Origin: Desulfosporosinus nitroreducens
GTDB taxonomy: Bacteria; Bacillota; Desulfitobacteriia; Desulfitobacteriales; Desulfitobacteriaceae
Direction of reading: 5' to 3'
DNA: 64,000 nt
Assembly (NCBI RefSeq): GCF_023897015.1
Contig: NZ_JAMHFY010000026.1
Location: 1-64,000, forward strand
Part shown: positions 1 through 22,992 of the stretch, piece by piece
How the letters are laid out: each line of letters begins with the position of its first letter
Position numbering within the stretch: the stretch's first letter is position 1
Notes under the pieces: generated by a model
Told to the model about the DNA's origin: nothing
The model's input: only the letters and a program-made list of their open reading frames with translations
Database searches by the model: none
Made by a program: the position numbers and the translations under genes

Positions 1-369
1 CAGGGCATCGAAGGAACGCAAGGTATCCAAGGAACTCAGGGTATCCAAGGAACGCAGGGCATCGAAGGAACGCAAGGCATCCAAGGAACTCAGGGTATCC
101 AAGGAACGCAGGGCATCGAAGGAACGCAGGGCATCCAAGGAACTCAGGGTATCCAAGGAACGCAGGGCATCGAAGGAACGCAGGGCATCCAAGGAACTCA
201 GGGTATCCAAGGAACGCAGGGCATCGAAGGAACGCAGGGCATCCAAGGAACTCAAGGTATCCAAGGAACTCAAGGTATCGAAGGAACGCAGGGTATCCAA
301 GGAACGCAGGGTATCCAAGGAACGCAAGGTATCCAAGGAACGCAAGGTATCCAAGGAACTCCGGGTTAA
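1..369 (+). CDS. Collagen-like Gly-X-Y repeat protein, 3' part only
   Basis: This is an open frame from the window edge to a TAA at 367-369, with no start visible. It reads as 20 consecutive 18-base units from base 4, each coding Gly-Ile-Glu/Gln-Gly-Thr-Gln, so every third residue is glycine, as in a collagen triple helix. Up to about base 255 the units are also arranged in a 54-base higher-order period (one Glu unit followed by two Gln units). Such proteins in spore formers (BclA family) form exosporium or spore-surface filaments and are often O-glycosylated on Thr, which fits the glycosyltransferase genes that follow. That role is an inference. The frame stops abruptly after the last repeat without a C-terminal domain; see the next entry. 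Confidence 0.8.
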   Translation, partial: QGIEGTQGIQGTQGIQGTQGIEGTQGIQGTQGIQGTQGIEGTQGIQGTQGIQGTQGIEGTQGIQGTQGIQGTQGIEGTQGIQGTQGIQGTQGIEGTQGIQGTQGIQGTQGIQGTQGIQGTPG

Positions 370-560
370 CCCTAGTAGATCCATCCACCCCCCTTACAGC
401 GTTGATCACCAGTAGTCAAGTAACTGGTCAAGCAATATTAACACTTGCAGCTTTGGATAGTATTAATTTCTTTGAGGGTGCCTCAAAAGACTGGTTGGGG
501 TACCCTCCCCTTTGTTTAATCGTAATTATTCGCAATCAGCCTACGCTTACGGTTGAGTAG
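366..560 (+). pseudogene. Probable C-terminal domain of the collagen-like gene, displaced by a frameshift
   Basis: A -1 shift at the end of the repeats (CCGGGTTA, 361-368) avoids the TAA and opens 64 further codons, ending in TAG at 558-560. The product begins Leu-Thr-Leu-Val-Asp-Pro-Ser and contains a hydrophobic stretch before the end. Collagen-like surface proteins normally carry a globular C-terminal trimerisation domain, so this is plausibly the lost tail. I cannot tell a real mutation from a sequencing error or a programmed event. No start codon or ribosome binding site supports separate translation. About 70 bases between this frame and the next gene hold nothing beyond that gene's ribosome binding site. 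Confidence 0.5.
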
Positions 561-1869: not shown

Positions 1870-2988
1870 ATGGAGGATAATCCTATAACCATCAGTCTTT
1901 GCATGATTGTTCGTAATGAGGAAAACACCATTGCCAGATGTTTAGATTCGGTGAAAGGAATCCCGGATGAAATTATAATCGTTGATACCGGTTCGACTGA
2001 CAACACGAAAGAGATTGTACGTCTTTACACTGAGCAAATGTATGACTTTGAGTGGATCGATGATTTTGCAGCTGCTCGTAATTTTGCTTTTGATCAAGCA
2101 ACTATGGATTATATTCTATGGCTCGATGCTGATGATGTTTTATTAGAAGTGGATTCTCGGAAGTTTCTCGATCTGAAGGGGAACTTGGACACACTCATTG
2201 ACGCTGTAAATATGCCATATGTTCTAAAGCGCGATGAGTTCGGAGTAGTAACGTATAGTTTTGGGAGAAATCGCCTGGTCAAGCGGAGTAAAAACTTTCG
2301 CTGGATTGGAACAGTGCATGAATATATGAATGTGTATGGGCAGATTCTGAAGTCGGATATCTGTGTAACCCATACGGGTACGTTTAAAGTCAGCGACCGC
2401 AACTTGAAAATATTTGAGAAGAATCAGGCTAAAGGTATGCCCTTTTCTCCGCGAGATTTATATAATTATGGTAATGAATTATTTCATCATCAGTTTTATC
2501 ATCGCGCGATTGAAGTTTACCAAGAATTTTTAAACGCTGGACAAGGGTCGGTCGAGGATAAAATTTCAGCTTGTGCAAGGCTTACCGATTGCTTTCAGCA
2601 GTTAGGAGACAAGGCCAAAGAGCTGGAATGGAATTTGAAATCCTTCGAATATGCCAACCCAAGGGCTGAATTTTGCTGTCGCTTAGGGTTCTATTTCTTG
2701 CGTGCTGAGCAATATGAACAGGCAGCTTTTTGGTATGGTTTAGCTACTAAATTAGAAAAACCTGATACTAGGGGGCCCATGCTTGAGGCTTGCTGGACGT
2801 GGTTACCCCATTTACAGTTGTGTGTTTGCTACGATCGCTTAGGTAAGCAGGAGTTAGCCTATAAGCATAATGAAATTGCTAGAACGTTTCGTCCGGAAGA
2901 TCCTCAGATGATTCACAACAAGAAATATTTGGAGCGTACGTTTGGAATAAAGTCAATTGAAACGGAAGTCAGGGGGAATGAATTATGA
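1870..2988 (+). CDS. GT2 glycosyltransferase with TPR-like tail, paralog of the preceding gene
   Basis: This 372-residue protein has the same architecture as the gene at 630-1730 and is near-identical over many blocks (ISLCMIVRNEENTIARCLD, then DTGSTDNTKEI, WLDADDV, NRLVKRSKNFRWIG). The pair therefore arose by tandem duplication. Differences concentrate between residues 90 and 130 and in parts of the repeat region, which suggests altered donor or acceptor choice. The stop codon overlaps the start of the following gene in an ATGA, so the two are translationally coupled. The 139 bases upstream hold no other gene that I can see. Confidence 0.88.
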   Translation: MEDNPITISLCMIVRNEENTIARCLDSVKGIPDEIIIVDTGSTDNTKEIVRLYTEQMYDFEWIDDFAAARNFAFDQATMDYILWLDADDVLLEVDSRKFLDLKGNLDTLIDAVNMPYVLKRDEFGVVTYSFGRNRLVKRSKNFRWIGTVHEYMNVYGQILKSDICVTHTGTFKVSDRNLKIFEKNQAKGMPFSPRDLYNYGNELFHHQFYHRAIEVYQEFLNAGQGSVEDKISACARLTDCFQQLGDKAKELEWNLKSFEYANPRAEFCCRLGFYFLRAEQYEQAAFWYGLATKLEKPDTRGPMLEACWTWLPHLQLCVCYDRLGKQELAYKHNEIARTFRPEDPQMIHNKKYLERTFGIKSIETEVRGNEL

Positions 2989-4274
2989 GCGGAAATTCAA
3001 TCTACGGATATAATGCAATTATAAGAGAATATGCTGACTACCCGCCGGGGCTACGTCTATTATTTGCCGGTGAACACGGGTGGGGGGCTGCTACGGAACC
3101 TAATACTTGCGATTTGCTAACTCAAGAACCCCTAATGTTAGTTTTAAACAGAAGACGTCTACAAGGATGGAAAGAAAAAAGTAGTATTCCTGCAGTTATT
3201 ATTGGTGCCCCTTTTGTACACTATCGAAAATTAAGACTAATTGAGAAGGATATAGATGCTAATGGTACAGTAGCCTTTCCGACACATGCCACTGAGCTAA
3301 TGGACGCAGTATTCGATATAGATGAGTATTGTAAGCAGCTGAAAAGTCTCCCGAGCGAGTTTCATCCGATAACGATATGTTTACATGCTGATGATTTAGC
3401 AAGAAAGAAGGATGTAATATATAAAAAATACGGGTTTGATATAGTAACTGCCGGGCCAAAGTACGTGCCAGGATTCGAATTTGTACAAAAATTTTATGAA
3501 ATTCTTAGAACTCACAAATATGCAACGTCAAATCAAGTCGGCTCATATTCTTTTTATGCCGTAGAAATGAATATTCCCTTTTTCATCTTGGGGGAGCCAG
3601 TTGATATGCTTAATAGTGGAGATATAACTATGCCCCCTAAATATAGTATTTTAGATCACCCAATGGGTGTTTTTGCTACAGCAATGTTCCAGGGTCCTAC
3701 GCAAGTCATTAGTGAGGAGCAAAAGAAGTTTGTTGAAGAGGAACTTGGCGTCCATGATTGTCTGTCCGGTCCAGAACTAAGGCAATTGTTGTTAGAAAGC
3801 AATAATCGGGCGATTCAAGCATATCAAGAATTTTTGCAGACAGGACAGGGTAAGGTTGAAGAGAAAATTGCTACTTGTCGAAAACTGGTTAATTATTTTC
3901 AGAGTTCAGGAGAAAAGGACAAACTACTTCAATATATTTTAAAATCCTTTGAATATGCCATACCAAGGGCGGAGTATTGTTGTCAATTAGGTTATTATTT
4001 CCTGAATGCCAAGCAATATGAACAGGGGGTTTTCTGGTATAAATTAGCGACTCAGTTGGAAGAGCCTATAAGTAACTCGATGACCTATATATTGAATATA
4101 CAGTTGTGTGTTTGCTATGACCGCTTAGGCAAACCTGAGTTGGCCTATAAGCACAATGAGATAGCTAGAAATGCTTGTCCAGGAGATAGCCAGGTTTTGC
4201 ACAACAAGAAATATTTGGAGCGTATGTTGGGAATAGGATCTCCCGAAAAGAAAGAAATTGTTCAAGAGAAGTGA
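2985..4274 (+). CDS. Unknown N-terminal catalytic-like domain fused to the TPR-like tail of its neighbours
   Basis: The last ~150 of 429 residues (from about AIQAYQEFLQTGQGKVEEKI) match the C-terminal repeat module of the two upstream GT2 proteins, including ILKSFEYA, AKQYEQGVFWYKLATQLE and LQLCVCYDRLGKPELAYKHNE. The first ~270 residues are unrelated to GT2. They contain alternating strands and helices, PITICLHADD, GFDIVTAGP and GSYSFYAVEMNIPFFILGEP. This resembles GT-B fold capsule or polysialyltransferase-type enzymes, where a conserved Ser/Tyr region near an FF-LGEP turn binds the nucleotide, but I do not recognise a specific family. It overlaps the upstream gene by four bases (ATGA). The role in glycosylation is inferred from the shared tail and the operon. 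Confidence 0.75.
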   Translation: MSGNSIYGYNAIIREYADYPPGLRLLFAGEHGWGAATEPNTCDLLTQEPLMLVLNRRRLQGWKEKSSIPAVIIGAPFVHYRKLRLIEKDIDANGTVAFPTHATELMDAVFDIDEYCKQLKSLPSEFHPITICLHADDLARKKDVIYKKYGFDIVTAGPKYVPGFEFVQKFYEILRTHKYATSNQVGSYSFYAVEMNIPFFILGEPVDMLNSGDITMPPKYSILDHPMGVFATAMFQGPTQVISEEQKKFVEEELGVHDCLSGPELRQLLLESNNRAIQAYQEFLQTGQGKVEEKIATCRKLVNYFQSSGEKDKLLQYILKSFEYAIPRAEYCCQLGYYFLNAKQYEQGVFWYKLATQLEEPISNSMTYILNIQLCVCYDRLGKPELAYKHNEIARNACPGDSQVLHNKKYLERMLGIGSPEKKEIVQEK

Positions 4275-4411: not shown

Positions 4412-4519
4412 ATGTGGGAGGTGAATTATGGAGAGGAATATAACGCGCTAATTATAGGCGCGGGAAATATTGGAGCAGGTTTTGATAGGAGGGAACGTCT
4501 TTGCATAATCCTTTTTTAG
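4412..4519 (+). pseudogene. N-terminal remnant of a Gfo/Idh/MocA-type dehydrogenase
   Basis: An ATG at 4412 opens 35 codons that include YNALIIGAGNIGAGFDRRE, the classic first beta strand and Gly-rich dinucleotide loop of the Gfo/Idh/MocA oxidoreductases. The frame then runs into unrelated sequence and stops at 4519. The intact family member lies at 5051-6064 with the similar start YKAAVVGLGQIGLTYDFDP. This is therefore the leftover 5' end of a second dehydrogenase, replaced by the acetyltransferase gene that begins inside it at 4501. Confidence 0.6.
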
Positions 4520-5064
4520 TTGCTAACAGAATTTATATGCGTAGACTCGAAAAAGAAGATCTGGAAGGTAATTACTTTCAATGGCTCAATGATCAAACGA
4601 TTACTAAATGGATGCGGCATGGTGTGTTTCCCAATAGCTGTGAGTCAATGAACGCTTTTTATGAGAATCTGTCAGGAAGCAAGACGGATATTGTTCTAGC
4701 AATTGTATTGAAAGAACAGGACAGGCATATTGGCAATATTGGTCTGCATTCGATCAATTATGTGTTTCGTTCTGCCGATATTGGTATTATTCTTGGCGAG
4801 ACTGATTGCTGGGGTAAAGGGTACGCAGCTGAGGCTTTCTCAGCAATAGCAGACTATAGTTTTAAAAGGTTGAATTTGAACCGCATAGCTGCGGGAGTCG
4901 TGGATGAAAATATTGGCTCAATACGGGCGCTTGAAAAAACGGGCTATAAGAAAGAAGGTATTTTACGCCAGGCTTATTTCTGTGATGGGCAATATCATGA
5001 CTGTGTGAATTTAAGCTTATTGCATAGTGATTGGCTGGCAGGTAGAGCCCATGAGTCAATATAA
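4501..5064 (+). CDS. GNAT acetyltransferase, RimJ/RimL type
   Basis: The 187-residue protein is a single GNAT domain: RIYMRRLEKEDL at the N-terminus (strand 1), the acetyl-CoA loop region DCWGKGYAAEAFSAIADYSF around residues 100-120, then LNRIAAGVVDENIGSIRALEKTGYKKEGILRQ. Such enzymes in sugar clusters N-acetylate amino-sugar nucleotides, like PseH, which is the likely role here. The start is TTG at 4501, chosen because TAGGAGGGA lies 7 bases upstream and because the family begins about ten residues before the RxLEKEDL motif. It overlaps the next gene by 14 bases. Confidence 0.85.
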   Translation: MHNPFLVANRIYMRRLEKEDLEGNYFQWLNDQTITKWMRHGVFPNSCESMNAFYENLSGSKTDIVLAIVLKEQDRHIGNIGLHSINYVFRSADIGIILGETDCWGKGYAAEAFSAIADYSFKRLNLNRIAAGVVDENIGSIRALEKTGYKKEGILRQAYFCDGQYHDCVNLSLLHSDWLAGRAHESI

Positions 5065-6064
5065 AGCGGCAGTTGTCGGATTAGGGCAAATAGGCTTAAC
5101 GTATGATTTTGACCCTAAAAGGGAAAGCCCTGCTGCGCATGTTTCGGCTTATCATCTAAATCCGTGGGTTGAACTGGTTGCAGCGGCAGATATACGAATT
5201 GATCAGGGCCAGGCTTTGCACAAAATAGCACCGACATTACCATTTTACCAGAGTATGGAGGAACTTTTGAAAAATCATTCTCTAGATATTATCAGTGTAT
5301 GTACGCCACCTGCTCATCATTTGTCGGCCATTCAATATATTATGCAGAATACTGATACCCAAATTATTTTTTGTGAAAAACCTTTAGTTAGTAGTGTTGA
5401 TGAAGCAAATTTATTGAAACAACAACTCAAGGAAGGGAACTGCCTGCTGATTCCCAATCTTTCTCGTCGTTGGAATAGCGGGATGCAACGTGTTAAAACC
5501 CATATTGAAAATAGGCAATATGGTGAGCTACAAAAAATACACGTCAAATATACGAGGGGAATAAAGAATACGGGCTCGCATATTTTTGATTTGTTACATT
5601 GGTGGGGTGGACAAATTAGCGAAGTTCAGGCTCTTAAAAAAATAAAAACCTCTGCCGATTATGATGGTGATCCTTCCTATACGTTTGCGTTTCTAATCGA
5701 TAAAAACATCCTGGGATTTGCCGAAGCCTTTGATGATGAACAATACTATTTATTTGAAATAGATCTGTATTTTTCCAAAGGCAAGATAGAAATACGTAAT
5801 AGTGGTGATGACGTGTTGTATTACCGAGTAGGTGAACATCATCTTTACACTGGTTTTAAAAGTTTGTATTTAGAGCACTTTGAAAACCAACTTCTGTCAG
5901 AATCAAATTTAGGTAATGCTGTTAACCATCTAGTTAATATCCTCGATGATCTGGAATATCCCCTATGTACGGTAGAGCATGGTGTTTATCCTCTATATGT
6001 GGCGGAAACTTTAAAACGGTCATTTGACAATCATGGTTCTAAAGAGAGAGTGAGATTACAATGA
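5051..6064 (+). CDS. Gfo/Idh/MocA family sugar oxidoreductase
   Basis: At 337 residues this is a usual length for the family. The N-terminal Rossmann domain shows AAVVGLGQIGLTYDFDP, and SVCTPPAHHLSAIQY followed by FCEKPL gives the family's conserved EKP motif. The C-terminal alpha/beta domain has GSHIFDLLHWWGG, the usual substrate-side His motif. Members oxidise or reduce sugars or nucleotide sugars with NAD(P), commonly making a 3-keto sugar for an aminotransferase. The adjacent aminotransferase gene fits this. ATG 5051 was chosen over the in-frame start at 5027 because it begins just before the first strand and follows GGCAGG. It overlaps both neighbours, so co-translation is likely. Confidence 0.88.
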   Translation: MSQYKAAVVGLGQIGLTYDFDPKRESPAAHVSAYHLNPWVELVAAADIRIDQGQALHKIAPTLPFYQSMEELLKNHSLDIISVCTPPAHHLSAIQYIMQNTDTQIIFCEKPLVSSVDEANLLKQQLKEGNCLLIPNLSRRWNSGMQRVKTHIENRQYGELQKIHVKYTRGIKNTGSHIFDLLHWWGGQISEVQALKKIKTSADYDGDPSYTFAFLIDKNILGFAEAFDDEQYYLFEIDLYFSKGKIEIRNSGDDVLYYRVGEHHLYTGFKSLYLEHFENQLLSESNLGNAVNHLVNILDDLEYPLCTVEHGVYPLYVAETLKRSFDNHGSKERVRLQ

Positions 6065-7359
6065 ACAAATTGGCATTATGCGGTGGTATCCCTGTTAGAA
6101 AATCAGCTATTCCCTGGGCGAGTACCATGGGCGAAGAGGAAAAAGCCGCCGTTGTGAAGGTTATGGAATCTGGCAATCTCTCAGCCTTTTTGGGCCGGGC
6201 CGGGGAGCAATTTTTGGGCGGCCCCAGGATAAAAGAAATAGAGAAGATGTTTGCTGGCAAATTTGGGGCAAAGCATAGCATATCAGTCAACTCGGCTACG
6301 ACAGCCTTACATACGGCTCTGGCCGCCTGTGAGGTTGGTCCTGGAGATGAAGTGCTGGTTACTCCTTATTCAATGTCTGCCACGGCTAGCGCCATTTTAA
6401 TGAATAATGCAGTGCCGGTATTTGTAGATATTTGCTCAGAAACTTATAATCTGAATCCTAAAGAGATCGAAAAATGGCTGACCCCACAAACAAAAGCTAT
6501 TATGGTGACAAATTTATTTGGTTTGCCGGCTAATCTGCCTGAAATCATCAAAATTGCTAAACAGCATGGCCTATATGTGATTGAGGACAATGCTCAGTCG
6601 CCTGGCGCTACGATTGATGGGAAGCAGGCAGGAACTTTTGGTGATCTGGGTATATTCAGCCTGAACTATCACAAGGTTATTCATAGTGGTGAAGGCGGGA
6701 TTATATTAACGGATAGTGACAAGTTAGCCTATCGTTGCCAATTAATTCGCAACCATGGTGAAGTGGCTTTAGACGACCTCAATGACGACGATACAGTGGT
6801 TTTGGGATCCAATTATCGGATGACTGAATTACATGCTGCTATCGGGATAGAACAACTCAACAAACTAGATGGGTTTTTAATAAAACGACATGCTTTGGCG
6901 GACCAATTATCCAGAGGCTTAAAGCGTTTCTTAGGACTAGAGGGTGTAACCGTGTCTGAAGGGTATGAGCATTCCTACTATGTCTATCCAATTCAATTTA
7001 ACCAAGATATTTGGACGATAAAACGAGCTGTCTTTGCTGCAGCGATGAAAGCAGAGGGGTTTCCGTTAGGTGAAGGATATGTAAAACCCATCTATTTAAT
7101 GAAGCTATATCAGCATAAAAGAGTATACAATCAAACTCACTATCCATTTTCATTCATTGATCAGCCTGTTCAAAGTTACCAAAAAGGAATTTGTCCGGTA
7201 GCAGAAGAAATGTATGAAGAAAAACTCATTACGGCAGATGTGTGTCGCCTGCCCTATACGGCTGGGGATATTGAGGATTTTTTGACAGCCCTTGAAAAGG
7301 TTTGGCAAGGGAAAGAGGAATTGCGGGCCTATGAAAAAAATAATCTTACTTGCTCATGA
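6061..7359 (+). CDS. DegT/DnrJ/EryC1/StrS family sugar aminotransferase
   Basis: This 432-residue PLP enzyme transfers an amino group, usually from glutamate, to a keto sugar. The PLP-binding lysine is Lys205 in LNYHKVIHSGEGG. The family motifs NSATTALHTAL, VIEDNAQSPGA and LGSNYRMTELHAAIGIEQL are all present. It is somewhat longer than the typical 370-390 residues, with an extended C-terminus. It probably acts on the keto sugar made by the dehydrogenase just upstream, with which it overlaps by four bases (ATGA). The real product sugar is not known. Confidence 0.9.
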   Translation: MNKLALCGGIPVRKSAIPWASTMGEEEKAAVVKVMESGNLSAFLGRAGEQFLGGPRIKEIEKMFAGKFGAKHSISVNSATTALHTALAACEVGPGDEVLVTPYSMSATASAILMNNAVPVFVDICSETYNLNPKEIEKWLTPQTKAIMVTNLFGLPANLPEIIKIAKQHGLYVIEDNAQSPGATIDGKQAGTFGDLGIFSLNYHKVIHSGEGGIILTDSDKLAYRCQLIRNHGEVALDDLNDDDTVVLGSNYRMTELHAAIGIEQLNKLDGFLIKRHALADQLSRGLKRFLGLEGVTVSEGYEHSYYVYPIQFNQDIWTIKRAVFAAAMKAEGFPLGEGYVKPIYLMKLYQHKRVYNQTHYPFSFIDQPVQSYQKGICPVAEEMYEEKLITADVCRLPYTAGDIEDFLTALEKVWQGKEELRAYEKNNLTCS

Positions 7360-8335
7360 CCCAGGTGGGTATGATGCGCTTTTTTCGGTTGTAGAAAGAA
7401 TGCAACAGGAGTCTGTGCCGTTGGAATTCTATTGTATAGGGCCGGCGGCAAAACTGAATCCTAGCAATGCTGTTTCCGAATCACGGGTGGTGCAGGAAAT
7501 CCAATCGATGCTTCTGGAAAAGAAAATGTCGGGTCTAGTCACTGGGACAAGTTGGGGAAATAGGCTGGAATTAAAAGCTATCGCAGCCTGTAAAGAAGTC
7601 CAGATCCCGACGATCTCTATTTTAGATTATTGGTCCAATTATCAGGCACGGTTTAAAGATGATTTAGGCAAGTTTATCTATCCGGATACCTATATTGTGA
7701 TGGATGAACTTGCTGCGCAAGAGGCAAGGCAGGAAGGTGTACCATCAAATATTCTTAAAGTTCTGGGGCATCCTGGCTTAGATAAATACATCTTACAAAG
7801 AAAAAAAACAATGTTCTTTGGTAATAAAAAGAAACTATTATTTCTTTCCCAGCCCTTATCTGCTTTGTATGGCCAAGAATTAGGGTATACCGAGCAGCAA
7901 GTTCTGGAAGATTGCCTACTGGCGGTACAAGGAAACGACGATTATTCCCTAAGTGTAAAATTTCACCCTAAAGACGATCCTAATTGGAAAGGTCGCTATA
8001 CGGATATCTCAGAAGATGGCGCATTGTTAGATATTATGACCGAATATGATCTCATAATTGGTATGAATACCATGGGATTGTTGCATGCAGTACTGATGGG
8101 GATTCCGGCGATTAGCTATCAACCTAATTTACAGAAACCGGATTTGTGTATTACGAATAAACTTGGTTTCACAAGACTAATTAAGTCATATCAAGAGTTA
8201 GAATTTTTATTGAATACTCCTAAAGGGGAAGATCGTAAAAATATTTGCCTGCCGAAGAGCTTCATCTGGTTGGACGGACATTCAACAGACCGAGTCGTGG
8301 GATGTATCAAGGAGGTCTTGTTAGATGAACATTAA
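7331..8335 (+). CDS. GT-B-like protein of unknown specificity
   Basis: The 334-residue protein starts KKIILLAHDPGGYDALFSVV, a GT-B type first strand and glycine loop. It continues with KVLGHPGLDKYIL at mid-protein and a C-terminal half with SVKFHPKDDP and DLIIGMNTMGLLHAVLMGIP, resembling the nucleotide-binding half of UDP-GlcNAc 2-epimerase, PseG and capsule transferases. I do not recognise an exact family. In this cassette it sits where PseG sits in the pseudaminic acid cluster, so a nucleotide-sugar hydrolase or glycosyltransferase are both possible. ATG 7331 was chosen over the in-frame 7292 because it begins at the first strand and follows AAAGAGGA. It overlaps the aminotransferase gene by 29 bases. 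Confidence 0.65.
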   Translation: MKKIILLAHDPGGYDALFSVVERMQQESVPLEFYCIGPAAKLNPSNAVSESRVVQEIQSMLLEKKMSGLVTGTSWGNRLELKAIAACKEVQIPTISILDYWSNYQARFKDDLGKFIYPDTYIVMDELAAQEARQEGVPSNILKVLGHPGLDKYILQRKKTMFFGNKKKLLFLSQPLSALYGQELGYTEQQVLEDCLLAVQGNDDYSLSVKFHPKDDPNWKGRYTDISEDGALLDIMTEYDLIIGMNTMGLLHAVLMGIPAISYQPNLQKPDLCITNKLGFTRLIKSYQELEFLLNTPKGEDRKNICLPKSFIWLDGHSTDRVVGCIKEVLLDEH

Positions 8336-9062
8336 TGCTATAGTAGCTACACGTATGACATCATCCCGATTACCAGGCAAGGTACTCATGGATTTAGCAG
8401 GAAAGCCTGCTTTAGTCCGCTTAATTGAACGCTTAAAAAGATCAAACTATATAAGTCAAATCATAATTGCGACAACGACAAACCATACTGATGATGTAGT
8501 AGTGGAAACGGCACAATCTCAAGGGGTTTTGTCTTACCGGGGCAGCGAAGAAGATGTTTTGTTACGGACCGTAGAAGCAGCAGAAGCGAATGACACTGAT
8601 TTTATTGTCCAGATAACCAGTGACTGTCCGCTGATTGATAGTCAAACGATTGACCGAGTCATCGAGCGTATGCTGGAACATCCCTACCTTGATTATGTGG
8701 GAAACCAATTGGTCAGGACATTTCCACTCGGCTTTAGTGTGGAAGTTTTCCGGACGAAGGATTTGCGGCAGGTGGAACAGACAATCAATGACCCTGTCGT
8801 GCGCGAACATGTTTCCTTGTATTTTTATGAGCAGCCGGAAAGATACTATTTATCGAATGTGGAGGCTTCGCACTTTTTGCATCATCCAGAATACCGTTTA
8901 ACTCTTGATACGGAGGAAGACTATCATTTAATCAAAACTATTTATGAGACGCTGCATCCTGTCAAGCCTTCTTTTGATTTGTATGATATTATCCGTTATT
9001 TGCAGCAAAATGCCGGGGTGCGTTCTATGAATCAGCATGTACAGCAAAAGAGAGCTAGATAG
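8325..9062 (+). CDS. SpsF/PseF-like cytidylyltransferase
   Basis: The 245-residue protein has the nucleotidyltransferase signature AIVATRMTSSRLPGKVL (residues 5-21), followed by IIIATTTNHTDD, the substrate motif QITSDCPLID and YRLTLDTEEDYHLI. These are shared with SpsF of spore-coat polysaccharide synthesis and with PseF, which joins CMP to pseudaminic acid. It is clearly paralogous to the pseF gene at 12454. The start follows AAGGAGG at good spacing and overlaps the previous gene by 11 bases. The sugar activated here is unknown, and no NeuB-type synthase accompanies this cassette. Confidence 0.82.
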   Translation: MNINAIVATRMTSSRLPGKVLMDLAGKPALVRLIERLKRSNYISQIIIATTTNHTDDVVVETAQSQGVLSYRGSEEDVLLRTVEAAEANDTDFIVQITSDCPLIDSQTIDRVIERMLEHPYLDYVGNQLVRTFPLGFSVEVFRTKDLRQVEQTINDPVVREHVSLYFYEQPERYYLSNVEASHFLHHPEYRLTLDTEEDYHLIKTIYETLHPVKPSFDLYDIIRYLQQNAGVRSMNQHVQQKRAR

Positions 9063-9310: not shown

Positions 9311-11634
<2,324 letters not shown>

Positions 11635-11671: not shown

Positions 11672-12295
11672 ATGAAAGAATACAAAACTGAGCAGGAAAT
11701 ATTTTGGACTGGTCAATTTGGTGATGAGTATATTAAGAGAAATGACAATGAAACACTCATTGCTAGTAATATAGCAATGTTTTCTAAAATACTAGATGGT
11801 ATTAATTATATTGAGTCAGTTATTGAATTTGGAGCTAATATCGGTTTGAATTTGAAAGCTATAAAAAGTCTTCTTCCAAAAATTGAACTATCTGCTATTG
11901 AAATTAATCAAAAAGCAGTATCAGAGTTGCAACAATTAGGGGAAATAATAAATATATATCATAAATCAATTCTAGATTTTATACCTGAATATAAGCGGGA
12001 TTTTGTTTTAATTAAAGGTGTCTTAATTCATTTAGATCCAACTTGTCTTCAAGATGTATACGATAAACTCTATCAGACAAGTAATCGCTATATTTGTATT
12101 GCAGAATATTATAACCCAGTTCCAGTAGAAGTTTCTTATCGAGGACATCAGGGAAAACTTTTTAAAAGGGATTATGCCGGAGAAATGCTCGATAAATTTA
12201 TGGATTTACGTTTAATAAAATACGGTTTTATCTATCATAGAGACCCTTCTTTTCCTCAAGGTGATATAACTTGGTTTCTATTGGAGAAAAAGTAA
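11672..12295 (+). CDS. Pseudaminic acid biosynthesis-associated SAM methyltransferase
   Basis: The 207-residue protein has the class I methyltransferase motif I as VIEFGANIGLNLKAI (about residues 50-65) and an acidic residue at the next strand (IELSAIEINQKA). The opening TEQEIFWTGQFGDEYIKRN is typical of the small methylase family found beside Pse genes in flagellin loci. It presumably methylates Pse or a precursor, but the position is not known. GGAGGAG lies 9 bases before the ATG. Base composition here is visibly more AT-rich than in neighbouring pseF and pseG. Confidence 0.85.
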   Translation: MKEYKTEQEIFWTGQFGDEYIKRNDNETLIASNIAMFSKILDGINYIESVIEFGANIGLNLKAIKSLLPKIELSAIEINQKAVSELQQLGEIINIYHKSILDFIPEYKRDFVLIKGVLIHLDPTCLQDVYDKLYQTSNRYICIAEYYNPVPVEVSYRGHQGKLFKRDYAGEMLDKFMDLRLIKYGFIYHRDPSFPQGDITWFLLEKK

Positions 12296-12345: not shown

Positions 12346-12453
12346 GGGCCCCCGTACTCTGCCTCAATATGTGAGTTAAAACTTTCGGCTTGTGTTTAAA
12401 TTCACAATGTTTTCAATGATAAACATTCGAAATTAAACGGGGAGTTTTTGAAG

Positions 12454-13188
12454 ATGAAGGTTGGAATTATTGTTCAGGCTCGGATGACCTCAACACGTTT
12501 ACCGGGAAAGGTGCTTTTGCCTGTGATGGGCAAACCACTTTTAGAGTATCAGATAGAAAGGCTGCGGCGGGTTCGTCGTGCGGACGATATTATCGTCGCG
12601 ACAACGACGAATGACAAGGATCAGCCGATTGTAGATTTAGCTGATAGGTTGGGTACTAAGGTCTTTCGAGGATCAGAAGAGGATGTGCTCTCTCGGTACT
12701 TCGGTGCGGCGAAGGAAAATGATTTAGATGTCGTTGTGCGTATCACTTCAGATTGTCCGCTTATTGATCCGGCGGTAGTTGACGATGTTATAGGTGCATA
12801 TTTAGAGAACGTGGAAAACTGTGACTATGTTTCAAATTGCCTGAATAGAACGTTTCCTAGAGGTATGGATACCGAGGTCTTCCCGTTCTGTCTCCTAGAA
12901 AAGGTTCATTTAGAAGTAGAAGAGCAGACATACCGTGAACACGTCACTCCGTATATCTATGAAGATGGCCAGAGATTTCGTCTATTGAACCTTGATTTTC
13001 AATGTGATGAAAGCCATCAACGGTGGACTGTAGACACTCTAGAGGACTTTAGGCTTATAGAGCATATCTTAGAAACACTATATCCGATAAATCCCTTATT
13101 CGAATTAGAAGATATCTTGGTTCTAATGAATGCCCATCCGAACTGGTTTGAGATCAATTCGCAAATTGAGCAGAAGAAGTTACGGTAG
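12454..13188 (+). CDS. pseF: CMP-pseudaminic acid cytidylyltransferase
   Basis: The 244-residue enzyme activates pseudaminic acid with CTP. It carries VGIIVQARMTSTRLPGKVLL at the N-terminus, where the Arg and Lys bind the CTP phosphates, then IIVATTTNDKD, RITSDCPLIDP and RWTVDTLEDFRLIE. ATG 12454 was chosen over the in-frame TTG at 12448 because CGGGGAG is nine bases upstream. It is clearly related to the SpsF-like gene at 8325, but is assigned pseF because it stands between the methylase and pseG in an otherwise complete pathway. Confidence 0.88.
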   Translation: MKVGIIVQARMTSTRLPGKVLLPVMGKPLLEYQIERLRRVRRADDIIVATTTNDKDQPIVDLADRLGTKVFRGSEEDVLSRYFGAAKENDLDVVVRITSDCPLIDPAVVDDVIGAYLENVENCDYVSNCLNRTFPRGMDTEVFPFCLLEKVHLEVEEQTYREHVTPYIYEDGQRFRLLNLDFQCDESHQRWTVDTLEDFRLIEHILETLYPINPLFELEDILVLMNAHPNWFEINSQIEQKKLR

Positions 13189-13217: not shown

Positions 13218-14327
13218 ATGATGTTGTTAATAGTTATCCGTGCAGATGCCTCGCAATTTATCGGCAGTGGACATATTATGCGCTGTCTGACGTTAGCAGC
13301 ACGATTGAGGGTGCAGGGTGCTGAAATAAGTTTCGTCTGCCAAGATCTCCCCGGTAATCTGTCCGAATATATTCGAAGTCAGGGTTATGAGGTGCATCTT
13401 CTTCCCGGTGATGAAGCCTGTGACCTATTATTGAAAAGACCTGAGCAAGCATGGCTGGAAACCGCGTGGAAATCAGATGCAGAGCAGACAATGGGAGTTC
13501 TAAAGAAGTATGGTAGAACGATTGATTGGTTAATCGTAGATCATTATGGTTTTGATCATCATTGGCAGTCGTGTTTGAGGGGGACAGTATGCCAAATTAT
13601 GGTGATTGATGATTTGGCCAACCGGCATCATGACTGTGATGTCTTGTTGGATCAGAATTACTACCACAATGCGGCGGATCGTTATCACGGATTGATTCCT
13701 AAGAACTGCTCTTTATTTCTTGGCCCCCACTATCTTTTGTTAAGAGATGAATTTTACAAAGCCCAGAAAGGCATGAGAATCAGGACGGGCGAGGTTTCCA
13801 ACATCCTCGTGTTTTATGGGGGAGCTGATACCACGAATGAGACTGAAAAGTGTCTGACAGGATTAAGTGATTACATCAGCTCAAAGTTAGAGATTAATGT
13901 GGTAACCGGTCAGTCTAATTCAAACAAAGAAAGAATCAAGCAAATTTGCTCTTCAAGGCAGAACCTATATTACCATTGTCAAGTTTTAAATATAGCTGAA
14001 CTTATGAACAAAGCGGACTTAGCCTATGGAGCGGGGGGCTCTACCACGTGGGAAAGGTGTTTTCTGGGTCTGCCTTCCATTGTAACTGTAACTGCGGTGA
14101 ACCAAATAGAAACAACTCAGGCAGTGTCTGATCTGGGTGCGATCTGGAATCTTGGGTGGTACGAGGAGGTAAATACTGCCTCGGTAGCTAGAGTTGCAAA
14201 GAGATTATTTATGGAACCCAGGAAAATAGTAGCCATGCAAGAAAGAGCTCTTAAGTTAATGGAAGTTAAAGGCTCCGCAGGTATTGAGCAGTTGGTCGAG
14301 CTTATATTTCAGGGAAGAGTGGATTAA
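13218..14327 (+). CDS. pseG: UDP-2,4-diacetamido-2,4,6-trideoxy-altropyranose hydrolase
   Basis: PseG removes UDP from the diacetamido sugar before condensation with PEP. The 369-residue GT-B protein starts VIRADASQFIGSGHIMRCLTLA, with the conserved G-x-G-H-x-x-R loop that holds the catalytic His. Later come DWLIVDHYGFD and the C-terminal NVVTGQSN and LAYGAGGSTTWERCFLGLP, the nucleotide-binding half. The ribosome binding site is weak (GAGAAAAAGAG), and ATG 13221 is an alternative start. It lies between pseF and pseH, as expected. Confidence 0.93.
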   Translation: MMLLIVIRADASQFIGSGHIMRCLTLAARLRVQGAEISFVCQDLPGNLSEYIRSQGYEVHLLPGDEACDLLLKRPEQAWLETAWKSDAEQTMGVLKKYGRTIDWLIVDHYGFDHHWQSCLRGTVCQIMVIDDLANRHHDCDVLLDQNYYHNAADRYHGLIPKNCSLFLGPHYLLLRDEFYKAQKGMRIRTGEVSNILVFYGGADTTNETEKCLTGLSDYISSKLEINVVTGQSNSNKERIKQICSSRQNLYYHCQVLNIAELMNKADLAYGAGGSTTWERCFLGLPSIVTVTAVNQIETTQAVSDLGAIWNLGWYEEVNTASVARVAKRLFMEPRKIVAMQERALKLMEVKGSAGIEQLVELIFQGRVD

Positions 14328-14386: not shown

Positions 14387-14938
14387 ATGATCAAACTAGT
14401 TGAAATTAAAAAATCAGATTTGGAAACACTGATGCACTGGCGAATGCTACCTGAGGTAACAAAATATATGTTCACCGAACCCCAGTTAACTATGGAAATG
14501 CAAAGCAAATGGTTTGAGGCAATTAATACTGATCCAACCTGTAAACACTGGATCATTGAGCTGGAAAATACTAAGATTGGTACTGTAAATCTAACAAATA
14601 TTGATTTTCAAAATAGTCGGTGTTCGTGGGGATATTATATCGACCCCCTATTCAGGGGTCGGGGTTTTGGAAAACTTTTAGAGTATAACATCTTTGATTT
14701 TGTCTTCAATGAATTGGGACTAAATAAGCTAATGAGTGAAGTTCTGGATTTTAACGAAAGAGTCGTTAAAATCAAAGAAAAATGCGGATCCCAAATTGAA
14801 GGAGTATTGAGACAGCATATAAAAAAAAGTAACACTTATCACGATGTTGTGGTCATGGGGATATTAAGAGATGAGTGGTTGGAACGCAGAACAAAGATTG
14901 CCTACGATAAGATACACATAGAAAGAAGTATAAACTGA
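14387..14938 (+). CDS. pseH: UDP-4-amino-4,6-dideoxy-AltNAc N-acetyltransferase
   Basis: This is a GNAT enzyme of 183 residues. LRDEWLERR near the end and the acetyl-CoA region WGYYIDPLFRGRGFGKLLEY (around residues 83-102) are visible, followed by NKLMSEVLDFNERVVKIKEKCG. It acetylates N4 of the PseC product. AAAGGAGG precedes the ATG at ideal spacing. It is slightly longer than Campylobacter PseH but fits pathway and position. It is only distantly similar to the other GNAT genes of the window. Confidence 0.88.
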   Translation: MIKLVEIKKSDLETLMHWRMLPEVTKYMFTEPQLTMEMQSKWFEAINTDPTCKHWIIELENTKIGTVNLTNIDFQNSRCSWGYYIDPLFRGRGFGKLLEYNIFDFVFNELGLNKLMSEVLDFNERVVKIKEKCGSQIEGVLRQHIKKSNTYHDVVVMGILRDEWLERRTKIAYDKIHIERSIN

Positions 14939-15002: not shown

Positions 15003-16052
15003 ATGTTATCTATAGGGACTGCTGGAAGAAGAATTGGAAAAGGATACAAACCCTTTATAATTGCTGAAATGTCTGGTAACCACAATCAGGATTTAGAGAG
15101 AGCTCTGGCAATTGTTGACGCTGCGGCTAAAGCAGGGGCCAATGCCTTAAAATTGCAAACATATACAGCAGATACCATGACTTTGGATATTGACAAGGGT
15201 GCGTTCCACATCGAGGACCCTGAGAGCCTTTGGCAGGGCAACTCTCTCTACAAACTTTATCAACAGGCGTATACACCTTGGGAATGGCATAAACCAATTT
15301 TTGATCGGTGTAAAGAACTAGGAGTCATTGGTTTTAGCACTCCATTTGATGCGACGGCTGTTGATTTCCTGGAATCGCTGGATGTACCTTGTTATAAGAT
15401 CGCATCCTTTGAGAATACGGATCTCCCCCTGATCCGTAAGGTGGCGTCTACCGGGAACCCGATGATTATTTCGGCAGGCATGGCAACAGTGGCCGAGCTG
15501 GATGAAACGGTTAGAGCGGCGAGGGAGAGTGGATGTCGGGATGTCATTTTATTAAAGTGCACAAGCACCTATCCCGCTACTTCGGATAATACGAATATTT
15601 TAACGATACCCCACATGCGGGAGCTGTTTGAGTGTGAGGTAGGATTATCGGACCACACAATGGGGCTTGGCGTCGCGGTAGCGAGTGTTGCTCTGGGTGC
15701 AACGATAATTGAGAAGCATTTTACCCTTTCTAGGGCCGACGGAGGCGTGGATTCCGCTTTCTCTATGGAACCAGCCGAGATGGGCCAATTGGTTAAGGAA
15801 ACTGAACGTGCCTGGCAGGCCCTAGGTAGAGTGGCTTACGGAGCAACTGAAAAAGAGAAAGCGTCATTGAAATATCGTCGATCCTTGTATATTGTGGAGG
15901 ACATGAAAGCTGGGGACACATTGACTCATGACAATTTAAAGGCGATAAGACCGGGTTTAGGCCTACCTACAAAGTATCTTGATGTTTTAATTGGTAAGCA
16001 GCTGAATCAAGATGTTTCAAAAGGGACACCTGCAAGCTGGGATATAGTTTGA
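15003..16052 (+). CDS. pseI: Pseudaminic acid synthase
   Basis: The 349-residue NeuB-family enzyme condenses 2,4-diacetamido-2,4,6-trideoxy-altrose with PEP. It shows FIIAEMSGNHNQDLERALA (metal-binding region), KLQTYTADTMTLD, GFSTPFDATAVDFLESL, GLSDHTMGLGVAVASVALGA in the barrel, and a C-terminal SAF domain (RRSLYIVEDMKAGDTL). AEMSGNHNQ is typical of PseI rather than sialic acid synthase. TGAGGAGG precedes the ATG. A decayed partial copy of its middle lies at 25617-25806. Confidence 0.94.
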   Translation: MLSIGTAGRRIGKGYKPFIIAEMSGNHNQDLERALAIVDAAAKAGANALKLQTYTADTMTLDIDKGAFHIEDPESLWQGNSLYKLYQQAYTPWEWHKPIFDRCKELGVIGFSTPFDATAVDFLESLDVPCYKIASFENTDLPLIRKVASTGNPMIISAGMATVAELDETVRAARESGCRDVILLKCTSTYPATSDNTNILTIPHMRELFECEVGLSDHTMGLGVAVASVALGATIIEKHFTLSRADGGVDSAFSMEPAEMGQLVKETERAWQALGRVAYGATEKEKASLKYRRSLYIVEDMKAGDTLTHDNLKAIRPGLGLPTKYLDVLIGKQLNQDVSKGTPASWDIV

Positions 16053-16385
16053 GGTGGAGGATGTAGTCTTGCCAAAAGGGGTCTGGACGTCGGGTTGATT
16101 CCGACCATCGTGTATTCGACAATGGTAATTATTGTGGGTAGATGATTTTTACATCCCGCCTAGGGTCTTCTTAGGCAGGATGATTTTTTATGTGGGATAG
16201 TATCTTGACTTGGCTTGGCGATTCAATGAAGAAATTCTGTCTAGGCATTCTTTTCAATTTTATAGAACTGCAATAAACCGTGTACATCCACTGACTTCAC
16301 TACATATATTGTTATCAGTCAAACACAGATAAAGTTCGCATGAGGACATTGTCTCGTGATAGTTCAGAGGCATGGGAGTGTTGAT
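16053..16385. other. Gap between pseI and rfbF
   Basis: Apart from the terminator at 16152-16189 I see no gene. A nine-codon frame right after pseI (TTG 16069) has no support. The part after the terminator is AT-rich and must hold the promoter of the CDP-sugar operon, but no clear -35/-10 pair stands out. Confidence 0.5.
16152..16189 (+). terminator. Intrinsic terminator after the pse operon
   Basis: An imperfect 11-bp stem (CATCC-C-GCCTA pairing TAGGC-A-GGATG, one C/A mismatch) is followed by ATTTTTT, the usual Rho-independent pattern, about 100 bases after pseI. Confidence 0.8.
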
Positions 16386-17156
16386 ATGAAAACAGTAATA
16401 CTCTGTGGGGGTCGGGGTACGCGTATGCGGGAGGAGACAGAATTTCGTCCCAAACCTTTGGTGGAAGTCGGTGATAAACCGATGATTTGGCACATTATGA
16501 AAATCTATTCGTATTATGGGTGTAATGATTTTATTTTGTGTGTCGGGTATAAAGGGCACATGATCAAACAGTATTTTATGGAAATGTACTGGAGGAATAA
16601 TGATTTTACACTCAGTACTTCCGGAGAAGACCCCGTAATATACCACACCAAGAACAACGAAAAATGGAAAGTAACCATTGTCGATACCGGTCTTGACACC
16701 CTGACGGGCGGCAGGATTAAGAGGATCCAGAACTACTTGGATGGCGAGGAATTTATGCTGACCTATGGCGATGGCCTGAGTAATGTCAATATCCATGAAC
16801 TTCTAGCCTTTCATAGAGCCAAAGGGAAAGTAGCCACGCTGACCGGCGTGCATCCCATATCCCCCTTCGGTGTGATGGATGTCCAAAATGAAATCGTGAC
16901 CTCCTTCAGAGAAAAACCGGTTCTTGAAGATATGGTGAACGGGGGTTATATGGTTTTGAATAAAAAGGTATTTGACTATATCCCGGAGGAAGACTGCGCT
17001 TTTGAACAGGAGCCCCTAAAAAGACTGGCGGCCGATGCTGAGCTTGCCGTATACAGGCATAATGATTTTTGGACGGCCGTCGACACCTATAAAGATGTGG
17101 AAAAAGTAAACCAGCTTTGGAAAAGAGAAGAGTCTGCCTGGAAACTATGGAATTAA
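16386..17156 (+). CDS. rfbF: Glucose-1-phosphate cytidylyltransferase
   Basis: The 256-residue enzyme makes CDP-glucose, the entry step to CDP-3,6-dideoxyhexoses. It starts KTVILCGGRGTRMREETEFRP, the sugar nucleotidyltransferase loop in its RfbF/DdhA form, followed by KPLVEVGDKPMIWHIMKIYS. FMLTYGDGLSNV supplies the metal Asp, and FWTAVDTYKDVEKVNQLW ends the fold. The length equals that of known RfbF. ATG 16386 was chosen over an upstream in-frame GTG because the family starts directly at MKTVIL and GGGAG precedes it. Confidence 0.95.
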   Translation: MKTVILCGGRGTRMREETEFRPKPLVEVGDKPMIWHIMKIYSYYGCNDFILCVGYKGHMIKQYFMEMYWRNNDFTLSTSGEDPVIYHTKNNEKWKVTIVDTGLDTLTGGRIKRIQNYLDGEEFMLTYGDGLSNVNIHELLAFHRAKGKVATLTGVHPISPFGVMDVQNEIVTSFREKPVLEDMVNGGYMVLNKKVFDYIPEEDCAFEQEPLKRLAADAELAVYRHNDFWTAVDTYKDVEKVNQLWKREESAWKLWN

Positions 17157-17192
17157 AAACAGGGAGAAGGGGTCAGGGTCCAGGCTAAAGGA

Positions 17193-18287
17193 GTGAGCAG
17201 GATAGAAAGGGACAGCATATTGGCGGAAGTTTTTCGAGGAAAAAATGTATTGGTTACGGGTCATACCGGCTTTAAAGGCTCATGGCTTTGTATCTGGCTT
17301 ATCCTGTTGGGAGCAAAGGTAACCGGATATGCGTTGGATCCTGCCCATACGGAAGATAATTTTGTCGTTACAGAACTTAAAGATAAAATGACAGATATTC
17401 GCGCCGATGTGCGAGATCTTATGGCTTTACAAAAAACCTTTGCCGAAGTCCGTCCGGAATTTGTCTTCCACTTAGCTGCTCAGCCGCTGGTCAGGTATTC
17501 TTATGAAAATCCCGTCGGGACCTATGCCACCAATGTCATGGGAACTTTGAACGTGTTAGAGTGCATCAGGCATTCTGACGTGACCAGGGTCGGAGTGATG
17601 ATTACCACGGATAAGTGCTACGAAAATAAAGAGCAGATTTGGGGTTACCGGGAAAACGATGCTTTGGGAGGATATGATCCTTACAGTGCGAGCAAAGGCT
17701 GTGCGGAAATTCTGACAGCCTCCTACCGAAATTCCTATCTGAACAGCAAGGAATATTCTCGGCATGGCAAGTCCATTGCCACAGCCCGGGCCGGTAATGT
17801 GATCGGTGGAGGGGACTGGGCGTTGGACAGGATCATTCCTGATGTCATCAGGGCCTTAAAAGAACACAGACCGGTCGAGGTCAGGAATCCCGAGGCGACT
17901 CGTCCCTGGCAGCACGTACTGGAGCCGCTGGGCGGCTATCTTAGCTTGGCGGCCAAAATGTATGACCACGGGGAAGATTACAGTGGTGCTTGGAACTTCG
18001 GTCCTGATTTCGACTCGGTTTGTCCGGTGAAAAACGTGGTTGAAGCTGTCATCGAGGCCTGGGGAAGCGGCACCTGGTGCAGCGCAGGGCAGGAAAATTC
18101 GCCCCATGAAGCCGGTCTTCTAAGCCTGGACTGTACGAAGGCCAAGACCTTGCTCGGCTGGAAGCCGAAGCTGAAGCTGAAAGAAGCTATTGGTTATACG
18201 GTAGAGTGGTACCAGTCGACTGAAGATAAATATGAACTGTGTGAAAATCAGATTGAGCGCTACGAGAGTGAGCTGAGGTCAAGATGA
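17193..18287 (+). CDS. rfbG: CDP-glucose 4,6-dehydratase
   Basis: This SDR enzyme of 364 residues turns CDP-glucose into CDP-4-keto-6-deoxyglucose. The NAD loop is VTGHTGFKGSWLCIWL, the substrate region HLAAQPLVRYSYENPVGTYATN is diagnostic of RfbG, and the active site is YDPYSASKGCAE. It starts at GTG 17193 behind AAAGGA. The stop overlaps the next start by four bases, so rfbG and the TPP enzyme are coupled. Confidence 0.95.
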   Translation: MSRIERDSILAEVFRGKNVLVTGHTGFKGSWLCIWLILLGAKVTGYALDPAHTEDNFVVTELKDKMTDIRADVRDLMALQKTFAEVRPEFVFHLAAQPLVRYSYENPVGTYATNVMGTLNVLECIRHSDVTRVGVMITTDKCYENKEQIWGYRENDALGGYDPYSASKGCAEILTASYRNSYLNSKEYSRHGKSIATARAGNVIGGGDWALDRIIPDVIRALKEHRPVEVRNPEATRPWQHVLEPLGGYLSLAAKMYDHGEDYSGAWNFGPDFDSVCPVKNVVEAVIEAWGSGTWCSAGQENSPHEAGLLSLDCTKAKTLLGWKPKLKLKEAIGYTVEWYQSTEDKYELCENQIERYESELRSR

Positions 18288-20029: not shown

Positions 20030-20712
20030 AAATGAAAATGGAAGATTATGCCCTGTTTATTAAAGAAACTTTGGACCGCTATAAAGGCAAATACAAACAT
20101 GAGCCTTTAAAAAACCTTCCTGTTTATAATGACCAAACTGTCATCTGTGGTTATTTAAGACCCATCACCGAGGATTACAGAATTACTTTGCCGGGATGCA
20201 GCGCCCTGCTGGGAAAATGGCGAGAAGAGAATCCGGGTATTGCCACCGGGACGTTTCAGGTTACGCGCGAGCGGACGGAAAAATGGCTGGATGAGCACAT
20301 CATTGGCCGGGATGACAGAATTCTTTTTTTGATTGTAGCACTTGATGGGCAGTTCCTGGGGCATATCGGTTTCTCCAGCTTTGACTATCAGGAAAAGGCT
20401 TGTGAAGTGGATGCCGTACTTCGTGGGGTAAAAGACATTCAGCCAGGCCTGATGGGCTATGCTCTGAATTCTTTGATTTGCTGGGGACATAATGATTTGC
20501 AGCTTGAGAAAATAACCCTCAAGGTGTTCGCTGATAATACCCATGCCATTCAGTTTTATCAAAGATGCGGTTTTCAGGTCGTGCAATTAATTCCCCTGGT
20601 TAAAGTGGCACTACCCAGTGAGGAAAAATGGGAAATCCGTTCTCAGTTACAGGGGATAGTCGCGGAGAGATATTATACCGAGATGATCTATAAAGGAATG
20701 GGAGTTTTATGA
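20026..20712 (+). CDS. GNAT-family acetyltransferase
   Basis: The 228-residue protein starts within AGAGGAGAAATG, overlapping the TPP enzyme gene by four bases. It has an extra ~50-residue N-terminal stretch, then a RimJ-like GNAT core: FLIVALDGQFLGHIGFSSFDY, CEVDAVLRGVKDIQPGLMGYALNSLI in the acetyl-CoA region, and ITLKVFADNTHAIQFYQRCGF. The usual R/Q-x-x-G-x-G/A loop is altered (PGLMGYA), so catalysis is likely but not certain. It probably acetylates an amino group installed by one of the two aminotransferases downstream. Confidence 0.78.
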   Translation: MKMKMEDYALFIKETLDRYKGKYKHEPLKNLPVYNDQTVICGYLRPITEDYRITLPGCSALLGKWREENPGIATGTFQVTRERTEKWLDEHIIGRDDRILFLIVALDGQFLGHIGFSSFDYQEKACEVDAVLRGVKDIQPGLMGYALNSLICWGHNDLQLEKITLKVFADNTHAIQFYQRCGFQVVQLIPLVKVALPSEEKWEIRSQLQGIVAERYYTEMIYKGMGVL

Positions 20713-22975: not shown

Positions 22976-22992
22976 AGGGGGGGGGAGGTTCA

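Follow-up and report, generated by a model that had tools for sequence, protein, structure and literature searches.

A conserved five-gene cassette linked to nonulosonate synthesis in Desulfosporosinus nitroreducens and its possible role in tailoring an amino-modified nonulosonate

Introduction

Flagella, S-layers and spores are decorated with nonulosonates (NulOs), sugars whose variety has been read largely from gene clusters. The subject of this study is a sugar cassette of Desulfosporosinus nitroreducens, located at positions 4501-9062 of a 64,000-nucleotide stretch of DNA (assembly GCF_023897015.1, contig NZ_JAMHFY010000026.1, positions 1 to 64,000; hereafter the window). Its five consecutive forward-strand open reading frames (ORFs) encode a GNAT N-acetyltransferase, a Gfo/Idh/MocA dehydrogenase (Gfo), a DegT-family pyridoxal phosphate (PLP)-dependent aminotransferase, a GT-B-fold protein and an SpsF-type cytidylyltransferase. 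The module is real and conserved and, as far as the literature searched shows, uncharacterised. It is tentatively read here as an add-on to NulO biosynthesis that would tailor, activate and transfer an amino-modified NulO, the product probably being an extra-aminated NulO attached to surface proteins.

Among described systems, the pseudaminic acid pathway (PseB-C-H-G-I-F) has enzyme classes in common with the cassette, adjoins it in the window and supplies PseF in the cytidylyltransferase slot of nine relatives, whereas the cassette enzymes fall below the PseC, PseH and PseF cut-offs and include both a Gfo/Idh dehydrogenase and a GT-B protein that is not PseG. The Bacillus subtilis sps operon for cytidine monophosphate (CMP)-legionaminic acid (PMC7439481) likewise brings together a DegT enzyme, a GNAT, an SpsF-type cytidylyltransferase and a GT-B-type protein, but it has its own NeuB (SpsE) and a PseG-like SpsG, and lacks a Gfo/Idh enzyme. 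A parallel in the way of working is provided by KdnA/KdnB of Shewanella, which make 8-amino-3-deoxy-D-manno-octulosonic acid (8-amino-Kdo; Kdo8N); there an ulosonate is oxidised, transaminated and then CMP-activated, and the cassette DegT resembles KdnA. KdnB, however, is an iron alcohol dehydrogenase, unlike the Gfo/Idh enzyme of the cassette, and the Kdo8N system includes neither a GNAT nor a dedicated transferase. The WlbA/WbpE and GnnA/GnnB 3-amino-sugar pairs combine Gfo/Idh and DegT enzymes as the cassette does, and the cassette Gfo is closest in fold to WlbA, but these pairs work on uridine diphosphate (UDP) sugars with no need for a cytidylyltransferase, and WbpE is the poorer DegT match. 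The GT-B fold and the (K/R)XHP-type cytidine-nucleotide site of the fourth cassette protein are also found in BFO_1060-family glycosyltransferases (GTs), polysialyltransferase GT38, KpsC and TarL, although the cassette protein falls far below the curated BFO_1060 and polysialyltransferase cut-offs. Finally, Gfo/Idh, GNAT and PLP-dependent transferase genes were reported, with no function given, beside pse genes in group III of the Aeromonas flagellar glycosylation islands (PMC7874193), a likeness in gene content.

Recurrence of the cassette and its link to nonulosonate synthases

Each cassette gene overlaps the next, by 14, 4, 29 and 11 bp when Gfo is taken to start at ATG 5051, its likely start rather than GTG 5027; the GT-B gene starts at ATG 7331. 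The initial annotation had described five overlapping genes of these families, and this is borne out by the ORFs and by Pfam matches for four of them (Table 1), with the Gfo start corrected to 5051. Its remark that the five genes include no NeuB-type synthase and no UDP-sugar dehydratase also holds, neither having been found inside 4501-9062. The same five genes are present at 80-97% identity in two Desulfosporosinus congeners and recur in many phyla, so the arrangement is not a chance one; next to them, pseB is 94-95% conserved in these congeners.

When 84,980 species were scanned with an alignment of five GT-B members, 35 loci were recovered. The hosts in Bacillota include Desulfosporosinus, Pelotomaculum, Sporomusa, Paenibacillus, Lachnospiraceae, Selenomonadaceae, Syntrophomonas and others, and those beyond it Neisseriaceae and other proteobacteria, Planctomycetota, Vampirovibrionales, Babeliales, candidate phyla and archaea. 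Within the order the GT-B gene was found in 3 of 74 genomes, and in a handful of 398 genomes of the phylum. Both gfo and a cassette-type degT lie within 4 kb of it in 29 of the 34 loci with a full-length GT-B gene. The order of the genes differs between lineages (GNAT-Gfo-DegT-GTB-SpsF, SpsF-Gfo-GTB-DegT-GNAT or PseF-Gfo-DegT-GTB), so it is the gene set that is conserved and not one fixed string. Across the 74 genomes of the order, the DegT subfamily was found only together with the GT-B protein, in precisely the 3 genomes that have the GT-B gene; this exact co-occurrence is taken from the order scan, since only four candidates per genome were scored when the DegT profile was run against the phylum.

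A NeuB-family gene is encoded within 10 kb in 28 of the 35 loci, its distance from the GT-B gene being 0-8.1 kb, and the remaining seven are on short contigs or near a contig end (for example, the 22 kb contig of L039). All 18 cassette genomes tested contain a strong NeuB, against a background of 72 of 249 Bacillota (29%). The cassette and pseB are only 4-16 bp apart in Pelotomaculum, Sporomusa and Paenibacillus, where the cassette and the nonulosonate genes evidently form one operon. In the window and in L017, L018, L026, L029, L042 and L046 the synthase qualifies as a true PseI, whereas in L015, L030, L034 and L047 it does not. In Desulfosporosinus fructosivorans (L015 7171-18258), the cassette is 89-97% identical and pseB 95% identical, while an RmlD-like reductase and a NeuB, a GNAT and a cytidylyltransferase of other kinds stand in place of the rest of the Pse operon, and no PseI over the cut-off was found anywhere in the genome. 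A restriction of the cassette to pseudaminate was therefore rejected; with a synthase that is PseI or another depending on the locus, the cassette is linked to nonulosonate synthesis without being specific to any single nonulosonate.

Judged by these neighbourhoods, the absence of NeuB is an effect of where the cassette boundary is drawn, the synthase normally being encoded next door. The initial annotation had treated it as a property of the cassette itself, which the 28 loci mostly refute. Its suggestion that pseI or pseB is borrowed from the neighbouring operon stands in so far as the synthase and dehydratase are supplied there, but not for PseI in particular, as D. fructosivorans illustrates. 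Gene order in other genomes, the check it had proposed, places a synthase beside the cassette and comes near to overturning the idea of a cassette without one; the pathway itself is not a characterised one.

Several further observations concern the distribution. The GT-B gene is beside NeuB in L036, L038, L040, L041 and L043, which belong to marine gammaproteobacteria and one Vampirovibrio and lack both gfo and the cassette degT; the four gammaproteobacterial loci have a class III aminotransferase-type gene instead (Pfam-confirmed in L036 only). Candidate-phylum genomes of very small size, Babeliales and archaea also have parts of the cassette (L029, L032, L037, L044, L047 and L048), pointing to wide horizontal transfer. 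Two Lachnospiraceae cassette loci encode small formyltransferase-family proteins (PF00551; L024 251-844 and L028 12023-12598), which possibly N-formylate the nonulosonate in PseH's place. One match to the GT-B protein (27%, genome G319, L012) was rejected as a cassette on account of its unrelated context, and searches for a phage or plasmid origin of the GT-B protein found no match there.

The cytidylyltransferase

Thirteen loci, including the window, have two cytidylyltransferases and the others have one. In the tree, the cassette copies group in a clade of 15 with support of 96/88, and the PseF-slot copies lie outside it; two of these 15 are from loci that show a single cytidylyltransferase gene only, near a contig end. 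A separate clade is expected if the cassette copies would activate a different ulosonate. Among the PseF-like enzymes tested, the single cytidylyltransferase passes the PseF equivalog cut-off in 9 of 11, and it lies directly before gfo or overlaps it in L024, L025, L027, L028, L034 and L044. Wherever the nucleotide step of the cassette can be named from its sequence, it appears to be a CMP-nonulosonate step.

The GT-B protein

The initial annotation had found the product of the gene at 7331 to be of no recognised family, in agreement with a Pfam scan, in which it matched none. Its AlphaFold model adopts a GT-B fold (predicted local distance difference test score (pLDDT) 91.7, predicted template modelling score 0.88). 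In VIA comparisons it matched WecB-type epimerases (Z 20.7; 309 residues aligned, root-mean-square deviation 3.8), nearly tied with MurG (19.5), followed by NeuC (19.0) and TarL (17.1). The proposed comparison with PseG and UDP-N-acetylglucosamine (UDP-GlcNAc) 2-epimerase thus recovered the same fold class but not the catalytic signatures. As a UDP-GlcNAc 2-epimerase or NeuC, the protein has the GT-B fold, but none of the GTRPE, GDT, HVEAG, PEE and HRREN motifs is conserved relative to the genome's own epimerase, and this candidate was rejected. The same applies to PseG, to which it is distantly homologous (hhalign 94.6%, E 6.5e-8): the R-x-D and GHxMRC signature, invariant in 12 PseG, is absent, the GT-B proteins carry an N-terminal DPGG, and the PseG NCBIfam model gave no match.

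Profile searches with the protein match TarL, an epimerase, CapG, KpsC and SiaD. Family scans of 34 members gave BFO_1060 GT in 24, polysialyltransferase PF07388 in 18, Epimerase_2 in 16 and CDP-glycerol transferase in six; the best PF07388 E-value was 9.8e-5, with members scanned singly remaining under the 23.3-bit cut-off. Window-type proteins scanned singly were below the cut-offs, and a few distant members pass that of CDP-glycerol transferase. The (K/R)XHP motif is present in 33 of 34 GT-B relatives and absent from three epimerases, and there is one near-C-terminal copy among 12 PseG. This motif is common to sialyltransferases and retaining Kdo transferases, in which its proline packs on the cytosine of bound CMP (PMC12887879). 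It thus suggests a CMP-sugar transferase role, and the protein is probably a CMP-sugar glycosyltransferase. Literature searches on Shewanella sfm and on glycosylation in Tannerella turned up no direct match, nor any tested gene to which BFO_1060 could be linked.

The dehydrogenase, aminotransferase and acetyltransferase

The Gfo protein has the hallmarks of the Gfo/Idh/MocA family, including a Rossmann domain (PF01408 over cut-off), the EKP lysine and the catalytic histidine. E108, K109, P110 and H176 are invariant in 27 relatives, and the usual Asp of DXXXH is replaced by Asn, His or Ser. It scores far below the NCBIfam cut-offs for UDP-GlcNAc 3-dehydrogenase (44.3 against 450 bits) and inositol dehydrogenase (63.7 against 355 bits). 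Its model (pLDDT 96) is near to levoglucosan and glucuronide 3-dehydrogenases and also matches YjhC (Z 29.1) and RgNanOx (Z 28.9), a Gfo/Idh/MocA enzyme for which C4 oxidation of a sialic acid has been demonstrated (PMC7535918). Both RgNanOx and YjhC take a NulO as substrate.

The DegT profile is closest to Protein Data Bank entry 8gyh, for which no paper was found, and to inosose aminotransferases, perosamine synthetase and KdnA, with WbpE further off. The alignment with KdnA, which aminates free Kdo, is nearly full length (260 bits, against 198 bits for WbpE); the cassette is nevertheless not a KdnA/KdnB system, as its dehydrogenase is of the Gfo/Idh type and not an iron-dependent KdnB. At the sequence level, the leading relatives are inositol dehydrogenases for Gfo and inosose aminotransferases for DegT. 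GNAT, DegT and SpsF all fall below the NCBIfam equivalog cut-offs of their Pse counterparts (PseH 49.8/93.1, PseC 223.9/423.5 and PseF 26.8/205.7 bits), and the window's GNAT is placed in the tree outside the clade containing the window's PseH.

Proposed role and alternatives

What the sequence shows is the gene content of the cassette, its recurrence, its linkage to NeuB and PseF, and the fold and motif of the GT-B protein; the catalytic steps, the C4 position and the acceptor given below are predictions. The nine-carbon acid would be provided by the neighbouring operon, through PseB to PseI here and another NeuB in D. fructosivorans. The Gfo/Idh enzyme would oxidise a hydroxyl of the free NulO, C4 being favoured, the DegT enzyme would convert the ketone into an amine and the GNAT would acetylate it. 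The product would be coupled to CMP by the SpsF-type enzyme of the cassette, or by true PseF in some relatives, and the GT-B protein would then glycosylate an acceptor, probably a surface-protein glycan, from the CMP-sugar. C4 is favoured because its hydroxyl is the sole free one on the ring and is present in every NulO, and because, as the anomeric carbon of a NulO is C2, C4 is the counterpart of pyranose C3, whose hydroxyl is the one mostly oxidised by the Gfo/Idh/MocA family. The C4 hydroxyl arises in the NeuB reaction and is therefore shared by all NulOs, which would explain how near-identical cassettes serve different NulO operons. Oxidation should precede CMP coupling because, we infer, a C4 ketone would favour CMP loss. 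The narrower proposal that the cassette makes and transfers a natural 4-amino-4-deoxy nonulosonate, for example a 4,5,7-triacetamido Pse-like acid, via an undescribed GT-B transferase family is an unlikely one.

Several points weigh against NulO tailoring. The Gfo model is closest to WlbA, the UDP-N-acetylglucosaminuronic acid (UDP-GlcNAcA) 3-dehydrogenase (Z 32.5), and fits a nucleotide-sugar substrate equally; the closest folds to the GT-B protein are UDP-binding epimerases, with UDP-GlcNAc 2-epimerases as top Foldseek matches (E 1e-12); D. fructosivorans combines a near-identical cassette with another NulO operon, which means that the substrate would need to be a part shared by the two NulOs; and five loci (L036, L038, L040, L041 and L043) have the GT-B gene but neither gfo nor the cassette degT. 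Moreover, we know of no natural 4-amino NulO, 4-amino sialic-acid-like sugars being known to us only from synthetic chemistry, and literature searches on amino-modified NulOs returned nothing matching. The WlbA likeness also serves the main rival, in which Gfo, DegT and GNAT would make a second sugar, either a nucleotide-borne 3-acetamido hexosamine or a free amino-cyclitol, that the GT-B protein joins to the NulO as donor or acceptor. Gfo/DegT pairs of this kind make 3-amino sugars, with precedents in GnnA/GnnB or WlbA/WbpE acting on UDP-GlcNAc or UDP-GlcNAcA, and both the inositol- and inosose-related sequence relatives and the tolerance of the cassette to a change of NulO agree with it. Such a route, however, leaves the cassette's own cytidylyltransferase, with its separate clade, without a task; DegT matches WbpE less well than KdnA; and (K/R)XHP points to a cytidine-nucleotide donor, although an amino sugar as acceptor would survive this. 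Tailoring of the NulO is favoured over this rival, which is conceivable but not likely.

A diverged second Pse/Leg set is an improbable explanation. Here GNAT, DegT, the GT-B protein and SpsF would replace PseH, PseC, PseG and PseF, with PseB and PseI borrowed, to give a second 5,7-diacetamido NulO. The enzyme classes run in parallel, the GT-B protein is a distant homolog of PseG and the adjoining PseB is conserved in the congeners, but all four enzymes are below the Pse equivalog cut-offs, the invariant PseG motif is missing, Gfo would have no task and a complete Pse set is already present in most loci. Least probable is a stand-alone CMP- or cytidine diphosphate (CDP)-activated amino sugar with no NulO involved, an alternative that the initial annotation had offered. 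The five genes do lack a NeuB, as do the surroundings of a few loci on short contigs (L027 and L039), but the presence of NeuB in every cassette genome tested and within 10 kb in most loci, and of true PseF in the cytidylyltransferase slot of nine relatives, speaks against it.

Genomic surroundings

A complete pseudaminate operon (pseB, C, F, G, H and I) follows the cassette, 419 bp after the SpsF gene (Table 1). No convincing terminator was found in this gap, where promoter and terminator scans did no better than shuffles.

Table 1. Genes of the cassette and of the adjoining pseudaminate operon in the window.
Feature	Position	Strand	Evidence
GNAT N-acetyltransferase	4501..5064	+	PF13302 2.8e-27; TTG start preceded by AGGAGG; distinct from PseH
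Gfo/Idh/MocA dehydrogenase	5051..6064	+	PF01408 4.9e-15; EKP lysine and histidine conserved
DegT-family PLP aminotransferase	6061..7359	+	PF01041 6e-87
GT-B-fold protein, probable CMP-sugar glycosyltransferase	7331..8335	+	No Pfam match; model, motif, weak family links
SpsF-type cytidylyltransferase of the cassette	8325..9062	+	CTP_transf_3 PF02348 4.3e-31
PseB, UDP-GlcNAc 4,6-dehydratase (inverting), first gene of the partner operon	9482..10474	+	TIGR03589 564 bits, cut-off 408
PseC aminotransferase	10471..11634	+	TIGR03588 549 bits, cut-off 424
Pse-associated methylase	11672..12295	+	TIGR03587 296 bits, cut-off 112
Second SpsF-type cytidylyltransferase, PseF slot	12448..13188	+	PF02348 9e-31; tree
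PseG hydrolase	13218..14327	+	TIGR03590 316 bits, cut-off 154
PseH acetyltransferase	14387..14938	+	TIGR03585 130 bits, cut-off 93
PseI, NeuB-family pseudaminate synthase	15003..16052	+	TIGR03586 506 bits, cut-off 340

Upstream, positions 1-380 (+), truncated at the contig start, encode the end of a collagen-like protein with QGIQGT repeats, followed by two proteins combining GT family 2 (GT2) and TPR parts (630-1730 and 1870-2988). D. fructosivorans has a Collagen Pfam match at the equivalent position (L015 3114-4175). The window's cassette has no Maf that could be found nearby, in contrast to Sporomusa, Pelotomaculum and Paenibacillus, and what receives the glycan here may be a spore-surface protein of BclA-like type instead of flagellin. 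At 2985-4274, a 429-residue protein has a GT-B-looking N-terminal part that belongs to no Pfam, NCBIfam or PHROGs family, and it shares its C-terminal TPR part with the GT2 proteins. Downstream, a CDP-hexose cluster (16356-24321) with RfbF-, RfbG- and RfbH-like proteins and a thiamine pyrophosphate-dependent acetolactate-synthase-like enzyme (18284-20029) is suggestive of a branched-chain CDP-3,6-dideoxy sugar of yersiniose type. Elsewhere in the genome, a second NeuB that is not PseI lies beside an epimerase and an aminotransferase (G000:C55:219707-224662), probably as another nonulosonate cluster.

Implications

From a NeuB-linked module of dehydrogenase, aminotransferase and transferase that recurs across Bacillota, further bacterial phyla and archaea, a modified NulO not yet described is predicted, and the GT-B protein offers a specific gene marker for finding organisms to examine. 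Should the C4 reading be true, nature would make 4-amino sialic-acid-like sugars, with enzymes that would find use in glycan synthesis.

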